Part shown: positions 21,071 to 60,158 of the stretch, piece by piece
How the letters are laid out: every line of letters starts with the position of its first letter
How positions within the stretch are numbered: the stretch's first letter is position 1
Origin: Aselliscus stoliczkanus
Taxonomy: Eukaryota; Chordata; Mammalia; Chiroptera; Hipposideridae
Length of the DNA stretch: 64,000 bases
Reading direction: 5' to 3'
Assembly (NCBI GenBank): GCA_033961575.1
Contig: CM066727.1
Span: 3,806,001-3,870,000, forward strand
The notes under the pieces: model-generated
The model's input: the letters and a program-made list of their open reading frames with translations, nothing else
The model's database searches: none
Told to the model about the DNA's origin: nothing
Program-made: the position numbers and the translations under genes

Positions 21071-21115
<45 letters not shown>

Positions 21116-21260
21116 GCTGAGCCATCCTGCCACCTGTTGGCAGCTCAACGGCAACTCAGCTCGGGCTGGCCTTGAACAGCTGTTGCTCAGAGCTCAGCTT
21201 GCACTCTTGAGCGAGCTCTTAACCAACTGAGCCACTCGGCCGGCCCCAAAGAACACCTCA
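21063..21260 (-). mobile_element. Rhin-1-like tRNA-derived SINE with flanking duplication
   Basis: On the minus strand the element starts GGCCGGCCGAGTGGCTCAG, which contains a pol III A-box-like segment, then a degenerate B-box region, and ends in a (AAAT)n tail seen as the ATTT repeat at about 21072-21113. 'agaacgcctta' (21063-21073) and 'agaacacctca' (21250-21260) are a slightly decayed target duplication. The body shares its 3' half ('ccacctgttggcagctca' on plus) with the SINE at 50798-50941. The subfamily is close to what I recall of Rhin-1 of rhinolophoid bats. Confidence 0.8.
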
Positions 21261-24849: not shown

Positions 24850-26021
24850 TTGTTCTGAATTTCTTCAGATAAATACCCAGAAATGGAATTGCTGGGTCAT
24901 AAGGTAGTTCTATTTTTAATTTTTTGAGGAAACTCCGTACTGACTTCCACAGTGGCTGCAGCCATTTGCAGTCCCACCAACAGTGCAGCAGGGTCCCCTT
25001 CTCTCCATAGCCTCACCAGCACTTGTTGTTTATTTTTTGATGATAGCCATTCTAACAGGTAGGAGTTAATATCTGATTGTGGTTTTAATTTGTATTTCTC
25101 TAATGATTAATGATTTTGAGCATCTTTTCACATGCCTACTGGCCATCTGAATGTCCTCTTTTGAGAAATTTCTCTTCATATTCTCTGCCCATTTCAAAAT
25201 TTGATTGTTAGGTTTTTTGCTGCTAAGTTATCCCAGTTTTTAGTAAATTTTGGATATTAACCACTTATTGGATATATCATTGGTGAATATCTTCTCACAT
25301 TCAATAAGTTGTCTTTCTGTTTTGTTTCCTTTGCTGTGAAAAAAAATATTTTAGTTTGATGTAGTCCCATTTATTTATGTTTTCTTTTGTTTTCCTTGCC
25401 CAACGCAACATATCAGAAAAAATATTACTAAAAACAATGTTAGAGTTCACTGCCTATAATTTCTTTAGGAATTTCATGGTTTCAGGTCTTACATTTGTCT
25501 TTAATCTATTTTGAGTTTATTCTTGTATAAGTTGTAAGAAGGTGGTCTAGCTTCATTTTTTTTTTTGCACGTATCTATCCAGTTTCCCCAACACCATTTA
25601 TTGAATATACCCCATTGCATATTTTTGTCTACTTTGTCATAGATTAATTGACCATATAGGTGTGGGTTTATTTCTGGGTTCTATATTCTGTACCACTGTT
25701 CTATTGGGTTGTTGGAAAAGTTGTGACGCATTTTTGCAATGAAAAAGAAAAAATACATCATGACTTTTACGACAACCCAATAGGTGTCTGTTTTTCTGCC
25801 AGTACCATGCTATTTTGATTCTATAGCCTTGTAGTATACTTTTATACCAAGTAGTGTGATACCTCCAACTTTATTCTTTCTCAAGATTGCCAGGGTTATT
25901 TGGGGTCTCTTACAATCCCACATAAATTTTAGGGTTATTTGTTCTAGTTCTGTGAAAAATGCCATTGGTATTTAGATAGGGATTGCACTGAATCTATAGA
26001 TTGCTTTGAATAGTATGGACA
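24850..26021 (-). mobile_element. Inverted 5' segment of a twin-primed L1
   Basis: Reverse-complemented ORF2 from 'gaaatggaattgctgggtca' (24880) to 'gcactgaatctatagattgc' (25984). The adjoining segment at 26022 starts in the opposite orientation at the same ORF2 position ('agcaattcaattctaggtat') where this segment ends on its left side. That geometry indicates one insertion with an inverted 5' part. A mariner MITE (25704-25780) later inserted here. Confidence 0.75.
25704..25780. mobile_element. Mariner MITE (copy 1), 77 bp near-palindrome
   Basis: Terminal inverted repeats TTGGGTTGTTGGAAAAGT and its partner ending CGACAACCCAA are flanked by TA on both sides (25702-25703 and 25781-25782), the Tc1/mariner target duplication. 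No transposase is present. Two related copies lie at 34204-34281 and 39180-39262. The two arms can pair over most of their length. Confidence 0.85.
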
Positions 26022-33491: not shown

Positions 33492-34203
33492 TGGGGGGAC
33501 AGCGACCACACAACCAGAGAGGTACCTGGGAGCCCCTGGGTGAGCTGCTTCCTGGCCACCTCTGTGTCGGCAGTAAATCCCTCGCGGATTCTAGTCCTCA
33601 GCTTTTGTGCTCTCAGAAACCCACAGAGCCTAACAGGGTCAACTTAGGAACAGGGCCAGGGCCGGGGGTCAGACTGGGTGTGACTTGGAAACCAGGCCCC
33701 ATCGGGCACCACTCTGGGCCTGACTTAAGCTGAACTGGGTCCGCTGTGAAGCCTTGGGTGAGTAAAATTGAGTTTTAAGGCTGAACAAGCAGGTTAACTT
33801 TACCTAAGATAACCTCGAATTACAGTGGCCATGTGGAGAACTATTAACCTAGATGAGCGTATCCATTTAGGGGGTACCCTATAAAAAAAGGGGTCTCAGC
33901 CAGGTAGTCACCATAGAAGGTAGAGGGAAAATTATGCTTCCTCCTACAGTTGCTGATGACTAGGCTGAGGCTGGCAGGGAAACGCCATTTCCTCCGGAGG
34001 CTGCAGACTAGATCCTGGGCAAACTGGGAGAAGCCCTTAGGGTGAGAATTCGTACCTAAGTCAGCTCTCTCTCAGGTCTCCATGTGTGGGCCTAGTCAAG
34101 AGGGGAACGTAACATTTCACAATGTCCCTGCCTTTCCAAATTCAGATTGACAGGCAAAAAACATTTGTAACAATTAGATCTTTGAATTGTGGGTAGTGAA
34201 TTA

Positions 34204-34281
34204 TTGGGTCATTGGGAAAGTCATGATGTATTTTTCTATGTTTTTCAATGCAAAAATACATTATGACTTTCCCGACAACCA
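34204..34281. mobile_element. Mariner MITE (copy 2) inside the class I ERV
   Basis: TTGGGTCATTGGGAAAGTCA at the left end pairs with 'tgactttcccgacaacca' at the right end. It is flanked by TA on both sides and has the same architecture as copies 1 and 3. It interrupts ERV internal sequence, so it is younger than the ERV. Confidence 0.8.
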
Positions 34282-39030: not shown

Positions 39031-39179
39031 ATCATCTAAAATATGGTGAAAGTGGAAGAATTTTCAGTAGGCCATTAAAATAGTACAAACTTCAAGAAAA
39101 GCACAGCTTGAATGGTGAAAGCTAGTGTAGAGAGAAGAGGATAAATCTAAGAAAAAATGTTAAAGACCTTTTCCTACTA

Positions 39180-39262
39180 CTGGGTTGTCAGGAAAGTCAT
39201 GATGTATTTTTTTTCTATGTTTTTCATTGCAAAAATGAGTCATGACTTTTCCGACAATCCAA
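39180..39262. mobile_element. Mariner MITE (copy 3)
   Basis: Ends CTGGGTTGTCAGGAAAGTCA and 'tgacttttccgacaatccaa' are flanked by TA at 39178-39179 and 39263-39264. 83 bp, near-palindromic, no coding capacity. Confidence 0.85.
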
Positions 39263-39264
39263 TA

Positions 39265-39978: not shown

Positions 39979-39984
39979 TATGGT
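39979..39984. repeat. 6-bp target-site duplication, left copy (TATGGT)
   Basis: TATGGT directly precedes the LTR at 39985 and recurs directly after the other LTR at 42403-42408. Six bases is the usual duplication size for betaretroviral integrases. Confidence 0.95.
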
Positions 39985-40092
39985 TGCCCCGACCGGCGGG
40001 GCATTCAACAGGGGCCGAGGGGCAGCCTTCTGAAAGGAGAAAATAGGAGGCGCGAAGAAATGGAGGCAAGACAGGGTTCTGATCAAGCCTCG

Positions 40093-40098
40093 TTTATT
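40093..40098 (-). terminator. Polyadenylation signal in the 3' LTR
   Basis: AATAAA on the minus strand, about 18 bases downstream of the TATA box. The close spacing implies a short R region, as in other betaretroviruses. Confidence 0.8.
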
Positions 40099-40115
40099 GA
40101 AGAACAGGAGGGGGC

Positions 40116-40122
40116 TTATATA
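40116..40122 (-). promoter_or_regulatory. TATA box in the 3' LTR
   Basis: TATATAA on the minus strand. The identical box in the 5' LTR (about 42088-42094) would drive proviral transcription. Confidence 0.8.
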
Positions 40123-40154
40123 GTCAAGGAACTGGGAGGGGAGGGAAGGAATGT

Positions 40155-40239
40155 AAAGGCGGGAGTTGCCAATAGCAATGGGACTAGAAGGGGAGGAGGA
40201 ATACGCAAAGGCGGGAGTTGCCAATAGCAACGGGACTAG
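40155..40239 (-). promoter_or_regulatory. Duplicated promoter-proximal CCAAT/GC-box unit
   Basis: Two 33-bp units (40155-40187 and 40207-40239) start 'aaaggcgggagttgccaata' on the plus strand. On the minus strand each gives an ATTGG (inverted CCAAT, NF-Y type) next to CCCGCC (Sp1-like), 33-117 bp upstream of the TATA box. The same pair is in the 5' LTR. Factor binding is inferred from motif only. Confidence 0.65.
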
Positions 40240-40337
40240 TGGGGGAGGTAAAAAGAAAAAAGAAAATGGAAGTACCGAAAGGAGGAAGCACTATGGCTGC
40301 AGGGGGTAACCTTATAGGGCTCTGCTGATCAGAATGT

Positions 40338-40383
40338 GTTTGTTTAGACTCTGAGCCAAGGTTTGTTTAGACTCTGAGCCAAT
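40338..40383 (-). repeat. 23-bp direct repeat in LTR U3
   Basis: 'gtttgtttagactctgagcc' occurs at 40338 and 40361 back to back. Tandem U3 repeats of this kind are commonly enhancers in retroviruses. Confidence 0.85.
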
Positions 40384-40430
40384 TACCTGTATGCAGTTGG
40401 GGGAAGGTTCCTCATGCTCAGGCCCCAGCA

Positions 40431-40442
40431 TCTCCTCCCTCT
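40431..40442 (-). other. Polypurine tract of the betaretroviral provirus
   Basis: On the minus strand AGAGGGAGGAGA abuts the first base of the 3' LTR. Confidence 0.85.
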
Positions 40443-40723
40443 GTGTTTTAGAGGGTGGGCCTTAACCGAGTGGGAAAACAGTGGCCTGATTCCTCCCCAG
40501 GGTCCCGGCAGGGCCGAAAACCTTTTGATGCCCTTGGTACCTTTGTGGGAGGAAAGGCAGGGCAGAGAATATGAAAGGGTACCAACCTTTATGCAAAATC
40601 AGGCATGTAATCAGGGAGATCGGAAGTTGGGTCTGTAAGGACCCTCCCTTGCAGTACTCAATAGCTGCAGCCAACTCGGTGCCCAGGGCTCGGAGGCCGG
40701 CATGTCTTCAGCCCACATGCCAT
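40443..40723 (-). promoter_or_regulatory. 3' noncoding segment between env stop and polypurine tract (possible RNA export element)
   Basis: About 280 nt without a significant open frame. In type D retroviruses the constitutive transport element sits in exactly this interval. I see GC-rich pairing potential but have not verified the diagnostic paired internal loops, so the function is inferred from position only. Confidence 0.35.
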
Positions 40724-41055
40724 TTAGATATCAATATATCGGGGGCCTGGCTTGGGAGGTCCTTGTTCCTCGGCGTCTGCCATAGCCAACCGATGGTAAT
40801 GAACATGAATGGGTTTGGCCAGAATGTTATCAATCTGCTGTTTGATAAAATTTGTCAGCGTTTTCCATGCCCAAGGCCCGAAGGAAAGAATTAGGAGCAG
40901 TCCTAAAAGGGGGCTGAGAATAGGGAGGAGGTAAGGCAAGAGACCGTGAAACCCGGTCAGGAAGGGGTTTTCAAGGAGTTGTTTCTTGCGTTGGAGCAGG
41001 TCGTCCTGGAGCTTCTTGACCTTATCTCGGACTATGCCGGACTGGGGGCAGTAGG
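40724..41055 (-). pseudogene. Env transmembrane C-terminal fragment of the betaretroviral provirus
   Basis: An env-frame open stretch of about 110 codons, of which the last 71 follow a methionine at 40939. It starts inside the ectodomain just after where CX6CC would be (QSGIVRDK near 41043-41020), continues through a charged heptad helix, a hydrophobic span (residues 1-20 of the 71-codon part) and a cytoplasmic tail with YHRL (48-51) and C-terminal YIDI, both Tyr-X-X-hydrophobic sorting-type motifs. Surface subunit, cleavage site and fusion peptide are absent, so no entry function is possible. The frame differs from that of gag upstream and overlaps its end, so it would need its own start. 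It shows no stop or frameshift within the retained part, consistent with youth. Confidence 0.85.
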
Positions 41056-41457
41056 GGGCTTATTTTCTTGAGAAGGAATATCTATGCAAACCGACCCACA
41101 GGCAGACGGAGGACGAGAGGATTTCTTTAATAGGTTTTCCCCTGTTTTGAGTATCTCTTTAACATCTGGGTCGTGGGAATGTACTTGGAGGATATCATTA
41201 ATGAGACTCCAATAAGTAAAGGCAGAAACGGGGACCTTTTCGGGCCCGAATGACTTATAAAAATCCTGGAGAGCGTTACCGACACGCTTCCAATAGCACA
41301 CGTCTATCGTTCCCTCCTGGGGGAACCAGGGACAGATATTTGTCAGAAGACCGAAGAATTGGCGGAGATCCTTTTTTCTAGCCTTAATTCCCCGCACCTT
41401 GAGGGATGACTTTAAACCCGAGAGGAAAAGTTCGTGTGAACTTGTTGTTTGGCCCAT
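41032..41457 (-). pseudogene. Truncated Gag (matrix region) of the betaretroviral provirus
   Basis: 141 codons, ATG at 41457 in a good initiation context (A at -3, G at +4). Residues 2-6 (GQTTS) fit an N-myristoylation signal. Residues 16-32 are rich in Lys/Arg, as expected for the membrane-binding face of matrix. Residues 42-51 (CPWFPQEGTI) and 71-77 (GPEKVPV) are typical of type D matrix. Full-length Gag of the group is several hundred residues. Here the frame stops (TAG at 41034-41032) at the gag-env deletion joint, leaving matrix plus a short linker and no capsid or nucleocapsid. Residues 135-138 read PTAP, a Tsg101-binding late-domain motif. Whether this PTAP is original or made by out-of-frame env sequence at the joint cannot be decided here. 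Otherwise undamaged and potentially translatable. Confidence 0.9.
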
Positions 41458-41935
41458 TGTTTTCTCCTCGGCCCTTCAAACACTCGAAAAAAAACACTCA
41501 GATGCCCGTCTGGCCGTGCCCCTCGCGGGACTAAATCTGTCTTGGCAAAAGCTCTGCGGTATAAGCCCTCGCACTGGTGGACTGGGGCGACTCCGGGAGT
41601 TCCGGAGTCGGCCACCACAGCCCAGTCGCCGTTTAACCTTACGACAGAAACGGAACCGCAGATTAGGCCCAATCAGATTCCGCGACCCGAAGTCTTGGAA
41701 CCTCCACGCACTCACACAGACATACGACCGAGGAGACTATCACACCAATTTGTCATCCCAGAAACGTCTATTTTCTGTCAGTCTGCTCACCTTACTCAGA
41801 TCAGGCTCACGGACAGGCTTTGTCCGTGTAGATCAGAAACGAGTCAGACTCGCGGGTCAATACCACGCGGCAACTCAGCGGTGTGTCCGGCCGGACTTGA
41901 AGCAGACAGTCTTCCGGAGGGCATGCAGTCCTCTG
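41458..41935 (-). promoter_or_regulatory. Proviral leader (primer site to gag start) with major splice donor
   Basis: 478 nt between primer site and gag ATG, the usual location of dimerisation and packaging signals. On the minus strand AAG|GTGAGC (41793 down to 41785, exon end at 41791) fits the vertebrate splice-donor consensus closely and is in the right place for the env mRNA donor. Packaging function is inferred from position. Confidence 0.65.
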
Positions 41936-41952
41936 GCCCCACGTTGGCGCCA
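41936..41952 (-). other. Primer binding site, lysine-tRNA type
   Basis: Minus-strand TGGCGCCAACGTGGGGC lies 4 bases inside the 5' LTR. It matches the site used by type D betaretroviruses (tRNA-Lys1,2) except for one missing C in the CCC run, a small change that would shorten the run of pairing. Confidence 0.85.
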
Positions 41953-41956
41953 GAAA

Positions 41957-42402
41957 TGCCCCGACCGGCGGGGCATTCAACAGGGGCCGAGGGGCAGCCT
42001 TCTGAAAGGAGAAAATAGGAGGCGCGAAGAAATGGAGGCAAGACAGGGTTCTGATCAAGCCTCGTTTATTGAAGAACAGGAGGGGGCTTATATAGTCAAG
42101 GAACTGGGAGGGGAGGGAAGGAATGTAAAGGCGGGAGTTGCCAATAGCAACGGGACTAGAAGGGGAGGAGGAATACGCAAAGGCGGGAGTTGCCAATAGC
42201 AACGGGACTAGTGGGGGAGGTAAAAAGAAAAAAGAAAATGGAAGTACCGAAAGGAGGAAGCACTATGGCTGCAGGGGGTAACCTTATAGGGCTCTGCTGA
42301 TCAGAATGTGTTTGTTTAGACTCTGAGCCAAGGTTTGTTTAGACTCTGAGCCAATTACCTGTATGCAGTTGGGGGAAGGTTCCTCATGCTCAGGCCCCAG
42401 CA
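41957..42402 (-). repeat. 5' LTR of the betaretroviral provirus
   Basis: 446 bp, TG...CA ends, identical to 39985-40430 by eye except C at 42151. The TATA box is at about 42094-42088 and AATAAA at about 42070-42065 on the minus strand. Confidence 0.95.
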
Positions 42403-42408
42403 TATGGT
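42403..42408. repeat. 6-bp target-site duplication, right copy (TATGGT)
   Basis: Matches 39979-39984 exactly. Confidence 0.95.
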
Positions 42409-42614: not shown

Positions 42615-43735
42615 AACAATTTATGTATTGATTTATTTTCCAGCTTCATTGAGATATAATTGACATATAATATCATGTAAGTTTAAGATGTACAACTTAA
42701 TCATTTGATGCATATATAAAGTAAAACCTTGGCTTGAGAGTAACGTGGTTTGCGAGTGTTCCTCAAGATGAGCAAACATTTCTAATACATTTTAACGTGG
42801 TAAATGAGCGATGTCTTGCAATACGAGTAGTTTGTTTCCAGAATGAATTATGCTCGCAAACCAAGATATTACTGTATATTGCAGTTATAACCACATTAGG
42901 ATTAGCTAATACCTCCATCACCTCACATAATTACCATTCCTTTTTTGTGGGGAAAACATTTAAGATCTACTCTCAGCAACTTTCAAGTATGTAACACAAC
43001 ATTATTAACTATAGTCATGGTGATGCACATCAGATCTCTAGAATGTATGCATCTTACCACTGGAAGTTTGTGCCCTTTGACTATCACACTCCCCCATTTT
43101 CCCTCACTCAGCCATGGAAACCACCACTCTACTCCCATTTCCATTTGTTTGCCTTTTTTAGGTTCCATATATAAGTGATATTACAGTTTGCCTTTCTCTG
43201 TCTGAATTATTTCACTTAGCACAATGCCCTCAAGGTCCATCCATATTGAAACAAATGGCAGGATTTCTGTCTTTCTTGGGCTGACCCATATTCTATTGAA
43301 TGTATATACCACATCTTGATCCATTCATCCATAGAAGGGCACTCAGGTTCTTTCAATGTTCTCATGATTGTGAATAATGCTGCAATACATATGGGAGTAC
43401 AGCTATCTCTCCAAGACAGTGATTGTATATCCTTCAGATATACATACCCAGAAGTGGGATTGCTGGATCATAAGGTAGTTCTATTAGTACATTGTTGAGG
43501 AACCTCCATGCTGTTTTCCATAGTGTCTGCACCATTTTACATTCCCACCAACAGTGCACCAAGGTCTCCTTGTCCCACTCCTCACCAGTCTTGTATCACT
43601 TGTCTCTCTGATGATGGTCATTCTGACAGGTGGGAGGTGACATCTCACTGTGGTTTTGATTTGCATTTCCCTGGTGATGAGTGACGCTGGGCACCTTTGC
43701 ACGTACCTGTTGGCCATCTGTGCCTTCTCAGACTG
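42615..43735 (-). mobile_element. L1MA-type LINE-1 3' UTR and ORF2 end, antisense
   Basis: The plus strand shows, in reverse order, 'cattgagatataattgacat' (42648), 'actatagtcatggtgatgca' (43009), 'tgaataatgctgcaatacat' (43371), 'gggattgctggatcataagg' (43457) and 'tttgatttgcatttccctgg' (43655). It is old and carries a MITE at 42719-42874. Confidence 0.9.
42719..42874 (-). mobile_element. Tigger-like 155-bp MITE (copy A)
   Basis: Its reverse complement matches 57718-57868 along the whole length. The right end on plus is 'cgcaaaccaagatattactg' followed by TA. It splits the antisense L1MA at a TATA sequence. No coding capacity. Confidence 0.8.
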
Positions 43736-50786: not shown

Positions 50787-50952
50787 CTGAAACATCGTTG
50801 TTGTTTTTTAGCTGAGCCATCCTGCCACCTGTTGGCAGCTCAGCGGCAGCTCAGCTCGGGCTGGGCATCGAACTGCTGTTCCTCCAAGCTCAGCTCGCAC
50901 TCTTGAGTGAGGGCTTAACCACCTGAGCCACTCGGCCGGCCCTGAAGCATCG
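50787..50952 (-). mobile_element. Rhin-1-like tRNA-derived SINE with 11-bp duplication
   Basis: The body (50798-50941) on minus starts GGCCGGCCGAGTGGCTCAGG, with a B-box-like 'cagttcgatgcc' and a 3' module 'ccaacaggtggcaggatgg', ending in a short A/C tail. Flanks 'ctgaaacatcg' (50787-50797) and 'ctgaagcatcg' (50942-50952) differ at one base. Same subfamily as 21074-21249. Confidence 0.85.
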
Positions 50953-57448: not shown

Positions 57449-57717
57449 CAACAGCATGTCTGAGGGGCACAGAATTTGAAATTGTATGTGTTTGGACCAT
57501 TTCATCAGAAGTGTCATTTACTACAAACAGCTAAAAGAGAGAACGGGACAATAATAAAAAAAAAAAATCCAATCATGATTGTCCAAAAATTGGACTTGAA
57601 TGCTCCGAGGATCCATTTGCCCATTTTTCTCCCAGTGAATTAACAGGTACGAACTTTTTCTAAAGAGCAGCGTGACGCCACTGATGCTGAGCCCTCCTAT
57701 TATTTTCAAACAAAGTA

Positions 57718-57868
57718 CAGTAATACCTTGGTTTGCGAGCATAATTCGTTCCAGAAACAAACTACTCTCATATTGCAAGACATGGCTCAGTTATCACATT
57801 AAAATATATTAGAAACAGTCTTGTAGAACACTTGCAAACCACGTAACTTGCAATCAAAGCTTTTACAG
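57718..57868 (+). mobile_element. Tigger-like 151-bp MITE (copy B)
   Basis: Starts CAGTAATACCTTGGTTTGCG and ends 'tcaaagcttttacag', with TA on both sides. It is the reverse-oriented homologue of 42719-42874. Confidence 0.85.
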
Positions 57869-60158
57869 TATAGTAAACCCTCTGATAAAGCAGCCTTTTT
57901 TTTTTCAGGAATAAGTACAAAATAACGTCTTCCATCCAACACTAGTTTCCCATCTAAACAGTGACCTATATCTAAATGTGTTCATGGGATTAATAAGACA
58001 GAGGAAGTCACTGAGGACCCCAGCCATTTGTGGGGTACCCACTATGCTCCAGGGACTGGGATAGAGCTGTATGACTGACGAGACCTCGCGCTTGTGGGGC
58101 CTACACAATCTGGTGGAAAACACAAGAAACCAGCAAACAAGCAAGCGCATCACAGACTGCAATAAACCTACGAAGGGAATAAAGAGGGTGATGAAGCAGA
58201 GAGTGGCTGAGTGACGGCGCAACGGAAGTGGCCCGTCCATAACGGCAATTTTGGCGGGAGAACGGAAGATGAAAAAGAGCTAGTTCTGCAAAGAAATAGG
58301 AAGGAAGCCGGCACAAATGTCAGTGTGTGTGCAACCGAGGTGTGCAAGAGACAGAAAGGAGGCTGAGGGCTGGGGGGGAAGCTGGGAGGGCCGGGAGGCC
58401 CCGAGTGCGAGCCAGTCTGGAAGGACCTTTTGTGGTTTCTTTTCTCACTGGAACAAATACGATGACATATTATGGGGCATCTTCGGCAATCACATCCCAA
58501 GGCAGTAACTGAATATGGAAATAGGCTCAAATGCAGCCGTAGTGTGAGTTAGGATTCAGTCCTTGCCATCTCCATGCGGAAGCATGCAGTGAGCGTTGGG
58601 CACAAGAGTATATGCTCAGCCATTGAGTTCTCAGTTTTCTTGGGTTCGAAAATTCTCTGTTTAATAAAATATCCAAAACTGCGTCACAGAGTCACCAACA
58701 AGTGCGGCTGTTCCCGAGGGTTTTTCATTCCTGAGCCCCTGCAGTTATGGCTAAGAGTTTTTCATTCCATAGACATAAAAAGAAAGAAACGAAACTGGAT
58801 ATTTGTGGGGTCTCACCCACCCCTCAGACTCTCTGCCTGGGAGCTTGATAGCAGAGATGAAAGACAGCAATCATTATCACCCCTTTTAATCACATAAAGC
58901 AATTAGAAGTGTTATCACAGTTATTTCAAATTCTGTTTTTGTTATTTTAAAATGGCAATTTTTAAATGAATTTACTTTAGACCACTAAACCTGATAAATA
59001 TGAACATGATTTTCAATTAATTAGCAAATACCCTCATATCTATTTTTCCTGTCTCATACATACCAATGCGAACCCCTTGAAGTTTTGAGAAATTATGTCT
59101 CATGCCTTGTCTTTATCACCTGTCAAAGATCAAATAGTGGTAATAAGGGGCAGGCTGCACATCCCTGAAAGGAAAGCGGTGTGATATTTGGTGTCTGAGA
59201 TGTGTTATGTCCAAAAATAAAAGGTTGGAGAAAGAGGCCAAGCCCCTTTCAGGAGAGACTTGATGAGTGCTACATACAGATAACACCTTCCAAACCAAAC
59301 GCTTTCACGCTTACCCAAAGTTTCAAAAGAGAGACAGGGACAACCAGTGTTCGCAAAGACAGGAAAGCCCTTTCCAAAATTTCTGATGAACCAGAGGAGA
59401 GGAGGCATAAGAATATGAGGGCACCTGGCTTCTTACATGAAAGTAAGCAATTGAAGCTAACAGAAGCAGAAAGGGACCATTTGTTTTAAGGACTCACGGA
59501 TGTCTCAGAGAAGCCAATGGAAGAGATCCAGCCAGCACACAGGAAGGGGTAGGGAGGCGTAGGACCCAGCAGGACGGCTGTGTACAGTTGTGGAGGCTGT
59601 GCACTGCACAAATGCACCTGGCCAAGGGAGAGGCAGGGGAGGGGCATAGAAAACCAGCCCACTGCCTTCATAGCCAGTGCGCTCTTGCATACAGCTCCAT
59701 TCGCCAAAGGCAGGGGTTTTCCCTGGCAGAGCTTTTGCCTCCCGGGGGGATAGATGCACCATCTGAACCCATGTTTGACCATCGCAAAGGGTGGGCGCTG
59801 CTGCCATCTGGTGAGTATAGGCCAGGAATGCTGCTGAAAACACCCAGTACACTGGACCACCCCCCATGACAAAGCAGCATCAGCCCAAACGTCCACAGTG
59901 CTGAGGTTGGGAATGTCTGACCTAAAGAGAAGGACGTTTTCTAACTCATACCAAGGTACCGCCCAGGCGTCAAGTCACGTCCCCACCACAATGCATCGCC
60001 CCGGGAAAAGCTTACCCGGATTCGCACTAGAGCCTCATGAGCCGGCAGCAACCTGGGCCCAGGGCCCTGACTCCATGGCCTGGTGTTTCAGCCCTGCCTC
60101 CCCAGCCCCCGTCCCCTCTCTTTCCCCATCCCCCTCCTTCTTTCGGCCCCCTCTCCCT
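57869..60158. other. Unassigned DNA
   Basis: Short frames of up to 163 codons overlap on both strands from 59486 to 60389, with no recognisable domain. No exon is supported. Confidence 0.35.

Follow-up and report, generated by a model that had tools for sequence, protein, structure and literature searches.

A single internally deleted type D-like betaretroviral provirus in the bat Aselliscus stoliczkanus and a separate deletion subfamily among its relatives

Introduction

When a provirus that has lost most of its genes stands in a genome among near-identical relatives, is it one member of a family of defective copies or a deletion that occurred once? This question is raised by a 2418-nt element, bounded by two nearly identical long terminal repeats (LTRs), in a stretch of 64,000 nucleotides of the genome of the bat Aselliscus stoliczkanus (here called the window; C1:3806001-3870000, contig CM066727.1 of assembly GCA_033961575.1). 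In this element early gag is joined directly to the end of env, and the original prediction had proposed that it may belong to a nonautonomous family that is copied in trans, as mouse ETn is by MusD. The host assembly, consisting of 2,187,126,926 bases in 146 contigs, was searched for its relatives. As described below, the element is probably a single provirus with an internal deletion, made by a polymerase jump between two copies of a short repeat, and its type D-like betaretroviral family was active recently.

The gag-env joint

The element switches from gag to env letters inside the 8-nt repeat AGTCCGGC, and longer copies carry this repeat at each of the two breakpoints. Where gag continues past it, in three copies (L003, L007, L009), the sequence is ...GCCCCCAGTCCGGCTGAG..., with TGAG after AGTCCGGC in all three, and two copies with more env (L006, L008) read ...AACAAGTCCGGCATAG..., with AACA before AGTCCGGC in both. 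The LTR starts are 1972 nt apart in the element versus 8468-8481 nt in seven other pairs, and therefore about 6.5 kb is gone from the element. It follows from the points at which gag and Env end at the joint that the missing stretch would extend from capsid to most of env.

A 42-nt pattern spanning the joint was found at one place genome-wide, the element's own (up to 3 mismatches, no gaps; reversed-pattern control 0), by a method that also finds 90 junctions of a 5′ LTR with a primer-binding site and 19 places of another joint, with controls of 0. Consistent with this result, none of 77 further loci, from which 121-nt pieces were taken at a fixed diagnostic offset from the junction, looks like the element: 60 continue in gag, 14 carry another joint and three are of other kinds (L115, L122, L132). 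The remaining 13 of the 90 junction loci are the element itself or had been seen by other pieces or by the spacing of LTR pairs. The proposal that the element is one member of a family defined by this joint is not supported by these searches of the assembly and is rejected; a unique joint is part of what the original prediction itself had named as refuting evidence.

A deletion subfamily of about 3 kb

A different gag-env joint is shared by other copies in the same genome. The LTRs starting at C7:46758090 and 46760701 are identical and bound a 3057-nt element (C7:46758090-46761146) with the target-site duplication GTTCAG. Compared with the window element, its joint leaves gag later and enters env earlier, with CCCCC at the switch. 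This joint recurs in a second copy, C1:12813090-12816150 (258 of 261 positions identical), which has the duplication GCTATT. A 40-nt pattern of the CCCCC joint occurs at 19 places (up to 3 mismatches; control 0), 16 of which had already been seen by pieces. Eleven of the 19, namely the C7 and C1 copies and nine others, were read to the polypurine tract, and their 3′ end lies at the distance expected for the form of about 3 kb; the other eight are known by their joint. Because both flanks were read in the C7 and C1 copies and their target duplications differ, duplication of flanking DNA is excluded for these two, the only copies in which both flanks were read. The plain reading is that the 3-kb form spread by reverse transcription. 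Judged by sequence, the genome holds a mobilised subfamily of deletion derivatives, which is absent from the window and of which the window element is not a shared-joint member. The comparison with ETn and MusD accordingly suits the genome, with its different gag-env joint at 19 places, and fails for this copy, with its single joint.

At two of the 19 places, C10:62738669 and C1:22126863, the env side of the CCCCC joint is closer to the longer copy L008; these two may have recombined with longer relatives, or the same spot may have been cut a second time.

The provirus family in the host genome

An LTR query returned 280 candidates. Forty of these 280 were scored, the two LTRs of the element included, and all 40 have 99-100% identity over the full 446 nt. 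Edges were read for 32 of the 40, the element's own 5′ LTR aside, and seven were left unread. Twelve of the 32 are 5′ LTRs with a primer site next to them, which has the usual form in 11; ten are 3′ LTRs preceded by a polypurine tract, one being the element's own; and ten stand alone as solo LTRs between 6-nt duplications. Nine LTR pairs are spaced 8.44-8.48 kb apart: the seven pairs of 8468-8481 nt mentioned above, and two in which a 3′ LTR (C2:185248049, C5:80121954) has its partner among the 5′ junctions, at a distance of 8.47 and 8.44 kb, respectively. The element's 5′ LTR is identical over 446 nt to seven of the 31 other LTR places read (L003, L004, L005, L006, L009, L012, L013).

Two traits of class II endogenous retroviruses (ERVs) are present: a betaretroviral matrix (p10) at the N-terminus of Gag and a 6-nt target duplication, which is the length expected for this class and was seen both in the element (TATGGT) and at all ten solo LTRs read. 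The betaretroviral pol/dUTPase region is deleted in the element. The type D-like betaretroviral origin, the youth of the element and the recent existence of relatives, all put forward in the original prediction, are supported by the matrix and Env-tail matches described below, by the LTR identity of 99-100% and by the nine pairs of 8.44-8.48 kb.

At C1:95963934 (L023, L044, L045), a 5′ LTR and leader match the family only to about element nt 582 and then run into unlike sequence, perhaps because of another deletion or a nested insertion. Among viral contigs no relative was confirmed; one primer-site match (L001) was set aside as a chance match on ORF layout alone. No account of this provirus family was found in the parts of the literature returned by a search that was not keyed to the host name and carries small weight.

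Origin of the deletion

Copy-choice deletion at AGTCCGGC is the likeliest origin of the joint. In RNA of the element or of a forerunner, the region from early gag to late env would have been lost through a polymerase jump between the gag and env copies of AGTCCGGC. The shortened RNA would have retained the LTRs, the leader, the 5′ end of gag and the polypurine tract, would have been packaged and copied by proteins of a fuller relative, and would have given rise to one integration event in which TATGGT was duplicated. We infer that the jump took place while RNA was being reverse transcribed and not in the chromosome, and likewise infer help in trans and competence for packaging. Several points weigh against this account: the data do not separate a jump in reverse transcription from a loss between these repeats that took place in the chromosome at a later time; the primer site is without one base; a U5-gag helix as long as the predicted one (12 bp) is reached in 8 of 300 mononucleotide shuffles; the Rfam model of the packaging signal of Mason-Pfizer monkey virus (M-PMV) scores below threshold (18.2 versus 54 bits); and the leader states 574 A and 588 T are private to the element versus all 25 other copies, because of which its direct source was not found.

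Direct repeats also promote chromosomal deletion, and a fuller provirus may have been inserted and have lost its middle between the two repeats afterward. The LTRs and target duplication would then look alike, and the single joint fits, but we regard this course as unlikely, because a copy with one difference in 446 LTR sites has had little time and because the CCCCC deletion in the same family, at 19 places, is most simply explained by reverse transcription. A variant compatible with the copy-choice account, which we entertain tentatively, is descent from the subfamily of about 3.06 kb, from which about 640 nt more would have been lost between the two AGTCCGGC copies. Both repeat sites are covered by pieces of the C7 copy (aligned to element nt 441-1373 and 1360-2418), and the two lengths, 3057 and 2418 nt, differ by 639; at position 1679 of the element, three of ten subfamily copies show no difference from the element versus none of three longer copies; and the 3′-half tree places the element beside two subfamily copies. 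However, the branches of the trees are near zero, the nearest 5′ halves are one longer and one subfamily copy at four substitutions each, the element is without the common subfamily states at 834 (G in nine of ten) and 1424 (G in six of ten), and recombination between copies would blur such signals.

A low-copy or segregating family with this joint, the other copies of which are missing from this one assembly, would be compatible with the fact that one assembly represents one haplotype set and that the pattern search takes substitutions and no gaps. The single genome-wide place, the lack of the joint at all 77 further proviral loci and the absence of the truncated Gag from the protein collection make such a family quite improbable. 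It is more improbable still that the joint is an assembly artefact, that is, a misjoin within a repeated provirus: gap events outnumber substitutions in the 5′ half against 14 copies, as leftover long-read errors could give, but both LTRs are 446 nt long and ungapped, the duplication is exact and the joint coincides precisely with a shared repeat of 8 nt.

Relationship to individual copies

Alignments and trees were built from the 5′ halves of ten subfamily and four longer copies and from the 3′ halves of ten subfamily and three longer copies. The element has three private substitutions in each half, and five and three private gap columns in the 5′ and 3′ half, respectively. Its leader lacks single bases that are present in 21 of 25 (566), 22 of 24 (735) and 21 of 24 (787) copies. 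The trees gave the element no firm position. Summed against the 14 5′ halves, gap events and substitutions number 131 to 95, or 76 to 67 after removal of the recurrent states that the element shows at six sites. This excess of gaps hints at leftover assembly errors. In the leaders of the 14 copies, gap events between copies are at least as frequent as substitutions, which is odd for divergence alone; sequencing error or a hairpin-driven copying error may underlie it.

Primer site, leader and packaging signals

The primer site, which begins after a 4-nt spacer behind the LTR, best matches the complement of tRNA-Lys1,2, with one C missing. Of 25 other copies, 21 have this C where it normally stands and one (L046) lacks it as the element does, so that the deletion is ruled out as a mark of the element alone. 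The missing base could be a leftover assembly error. Four short upstream ATGs occur from LTR nt 339 onward, ahead of the donor-like AAG/GTGAGC (41790) and of the gag ATG.

Packaging of M-PMV needs long-range pairing of U5 with gag, and a palindromic stem-loop starts its dimers (PMC7674771). Comparable structures are predicted in the element. The fold of the leader and 5′ gag beats its shuffles (z -3.19; none of 20 as good), and the core of the predicted U5-gag helix pairs with a calculated probability near 1. The 12-nt palindrome is weak alone, one being present in 236 of 2000 shuffled leaders. These predictions lend moderate support to the suggestion that RNA of the element may be competent for packaging. 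In the region from env to the 3′ LTR, where M-PMV-like type D viruses have a constitutive transport element, there is no clear signal of one: no Rfam match reached its threshold, in a collection that may or may not include this element, and the fold has a z of -1.49.

Within 41060-41956 the ratio of observed to expected CpG is 0.96 in the leader and 0.83 in gag, and in the part from env to the 3′ end (40431-41059) it is 0.44; in 115 blocks outside the element the median is 0.28 and the maximum 0.49.

Gag and Env remnants

The gag start codon (ATG, 41457) is flanked by A at -3 and G at +4. Because env lies in a different frame from gag where the two meet, the only long frame from this start is the truncated Gag of 141 aa. 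The frame contains, in order, a p10 matrix domain (PF02337, E 3.7e-25), the motif PTAP and a stop just beyond the joint. The best solved relative of the Gag piece is the M-PMV matrix (E 2.1e-35). PTAP is evidently native to gag, because the gag of longer copies reads into AGTCCGGC as in the element. The position of Arg55, which is part of the retention signal of the M-PMV matrix, is occupied by Tyr in the element, and it is not Arg in P0001, P0002 or P0003 either. The Env tail matches TLV_coat (E 3.1e-20) and the solved structure 4jf3 (E 3e-5; entry named 'Envelope glycoprotein'), which we take to be the M-PMV Env core. In the protein collection, the truncated Gag has seven matches with 50-66% identity among candidates of similar length; of the named sequences, the one closest to its matrix comes from the bat Pipistrellus nathusii (65%). 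Ten matches were found for the Env tail, of which eight are unnamed (57-79% identity) and two are from the bat Molossus molossus (53 and 56%).

A Gag of this form could be imagined to act on its relatives, with the matrix-PTAP ORF hampering the assembly or release of active viruses and a packageable RNA competing with theirs. This idea leans on a young, well-initiated ORF with a myristoylation-type start motif and on an LTR that seven other loci share without a difference; a role of the element as a working interference locus nevertheless seems to us highly improbable.

LTRs and age

The only mismatch between the two LTRs (40179 T, 42151 C; one site in 446) precedes a G and represents a CpG/TpG change. 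With generic mammalian substitution rates, one difference corresponds to 0.25-0.51 million years (My), and the Poisson range across three such rates is 0.006-2.8 My. Bat rates, derived from two rows of a published bat table (0.008 = 4.2 My; 0.011 = 13.8 My; PMC3621094), give about 1.2-2.8 My. The difference is doubtful as a clean clock: repeat mutation or conversion is possible at LTR nt 252, because A is also found there in both LTRs of another provirus, C3:21046466-21055384.

In the LTR, TATATAAG lies close to AATAAA, as expected with a short R. Two copies of GTTGCTATTGGCAAC are present in the 5′ LTR (LTR nt 200-214 and 252-266), and the sole LTR difference is the first base of the second copy. 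U3 also contains a perfect 23-nt tandem repeat (window 40338-40382 and 42310-42354); both kinds of duplication are enhancer-like.

Comparison with known systems

Among macaque proviruses of SERV-K/MER11 (HML-2-like), deletion derivatives have joints in common, at pro-pol in 32 and at pol-env in 60 proviruses, and co-packaging is considered the likely way in which they spread (PMC11379458). The likeness to the group at 19 places is that of a young betaretroviral family with shared deletion joints, whereas the joint of the window element is single and Env here is of the M-PMV/gammaretroviral type. In the mouse, the nonautonomous LTR element ETn, which is non-coding and present in about 240 copies, is moved by its coding relative MusD (PMC6466679); the window element differs in that a gag ORF is kept and in being single by its joint. 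Autonomous and nonautonomous ERVK elements in one genome are also known as mys and mysTR of the deer mouse, in which the nonautonomous sets are mostly without homology outside one 3′ region (PMC10089650), in contrast to the plain gag-env deletions described here. The group at 19 places is a new case of an already known kind, derivatives with a shared deletion, and the window element is an ordinary one-off.

M-PMV-like ERVs are known from megabats, and the bat betaretrovirus group VIII (PvERV-betaJ/K) is described as M-PMV-like, with a Lys1,2 primer site, LTRs of 425-427 nt and an Env of gammaretroviral type (PMC3621094). Compared by description, with the sequences unaligned, the element resembles this group in LTR size class, in Env type and, with one base missing, in primer-site type. 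It differs in having no ORF of at least 40 aa that ends about 15 nt into the 3′ LTR, a feature reported for PvERV-betaJ/K; a post-env ORF as in PvERV-betaJ was not found among the element's ORFs.

In one genome and one provirus family, two deletions at short repeats have had different fates, one staying single and one spreading (1 versus 19 places), and their comparison asks under what conditions a defective retrovirus goes on being copied. The many sites with near-identical LTRs are, moreover, useful for population and dating work on the host.

Features of the element and the rest of the window

The two 446-bp LTRs, the exact TATGGT duplication, the splice donor, the leader, the start of gag, the Env tail and the polypurine tract listed in the original prediction, which gave no orientation, are all in place on the minus strand (Table 1). 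Its statement that all cis signals are kept was slightly overstated with respect to the primer site; the other signals listed are present.

Table 1. Features of the deleted provirus, in window positions
Feature	Position	Strand	Remarks
Whole element	42402 down to 39985	minus	2418 nt, flanked by exact TATGGT copies
5′ LTR	41957..42402	minus	446 nt; TATATAAG at LTR nt 309, AATAAA at 333
3′ LTR	39985..40430	minus	446 nt; single difference to 5′ LTR (LTR nt 252 G>A, CpG context)
Target-site duplication TATGGT, element's 3′ side	39979..39984		
Target-site duplication TATGGT, element's 5′ side	42403..42408		
Primer-binding site	41936..41952	minus	tRNA-Lys1,2 type, one C missing
12-nt palindrome GTCCGGCCGGAC	41885..41896	minus	predicted stem-loop, candidate dimer-start site
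U5 arm of predicted U5-gag long-range helix	42020..42031	minus	
gag arm of predicted U5-gag long-range helix	41388..41399	minus	
Splice-donor-like AAG/GTGAGC	41785..41793	minus	
Truncated gag open reading frame (ORF)	41032..41457	minus	141 aa + stop: matrix domain, PTAP, 'SPA' end over joint
gag-env joint	41036..41043	minus	8-nt repeat AGTCCGGC, found at both breakpoints in longer copies
Env transmembrane tail + stop	40724..41043	minus	frame differs from gag
Polypurine tract AGAGGGAGGAGA	40431..40442	minus	12-nt run adjoining 3′ LTR

Ten of the window's 42 frames with 110 aa or more were scanned for host genes, and none of these ten had a Pfam match above threshold. When ten repeat consensuses were compared with the window, seven had no match, MIR matched, and VES/CanSINE matched over only 30-56 nt, mostly in an AG repeat. 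Old short repeats of two families, about 78-82% alike, lie at 39177-39264, 34202-34280 and 25702-25783 and at 42715-42876 and 57716-57872. A pair of tRNA-like short interspersed nuclear elements, possibly of a bat family, is found at 21110-21246 and 50805-50942, and its two members are 90% identical.

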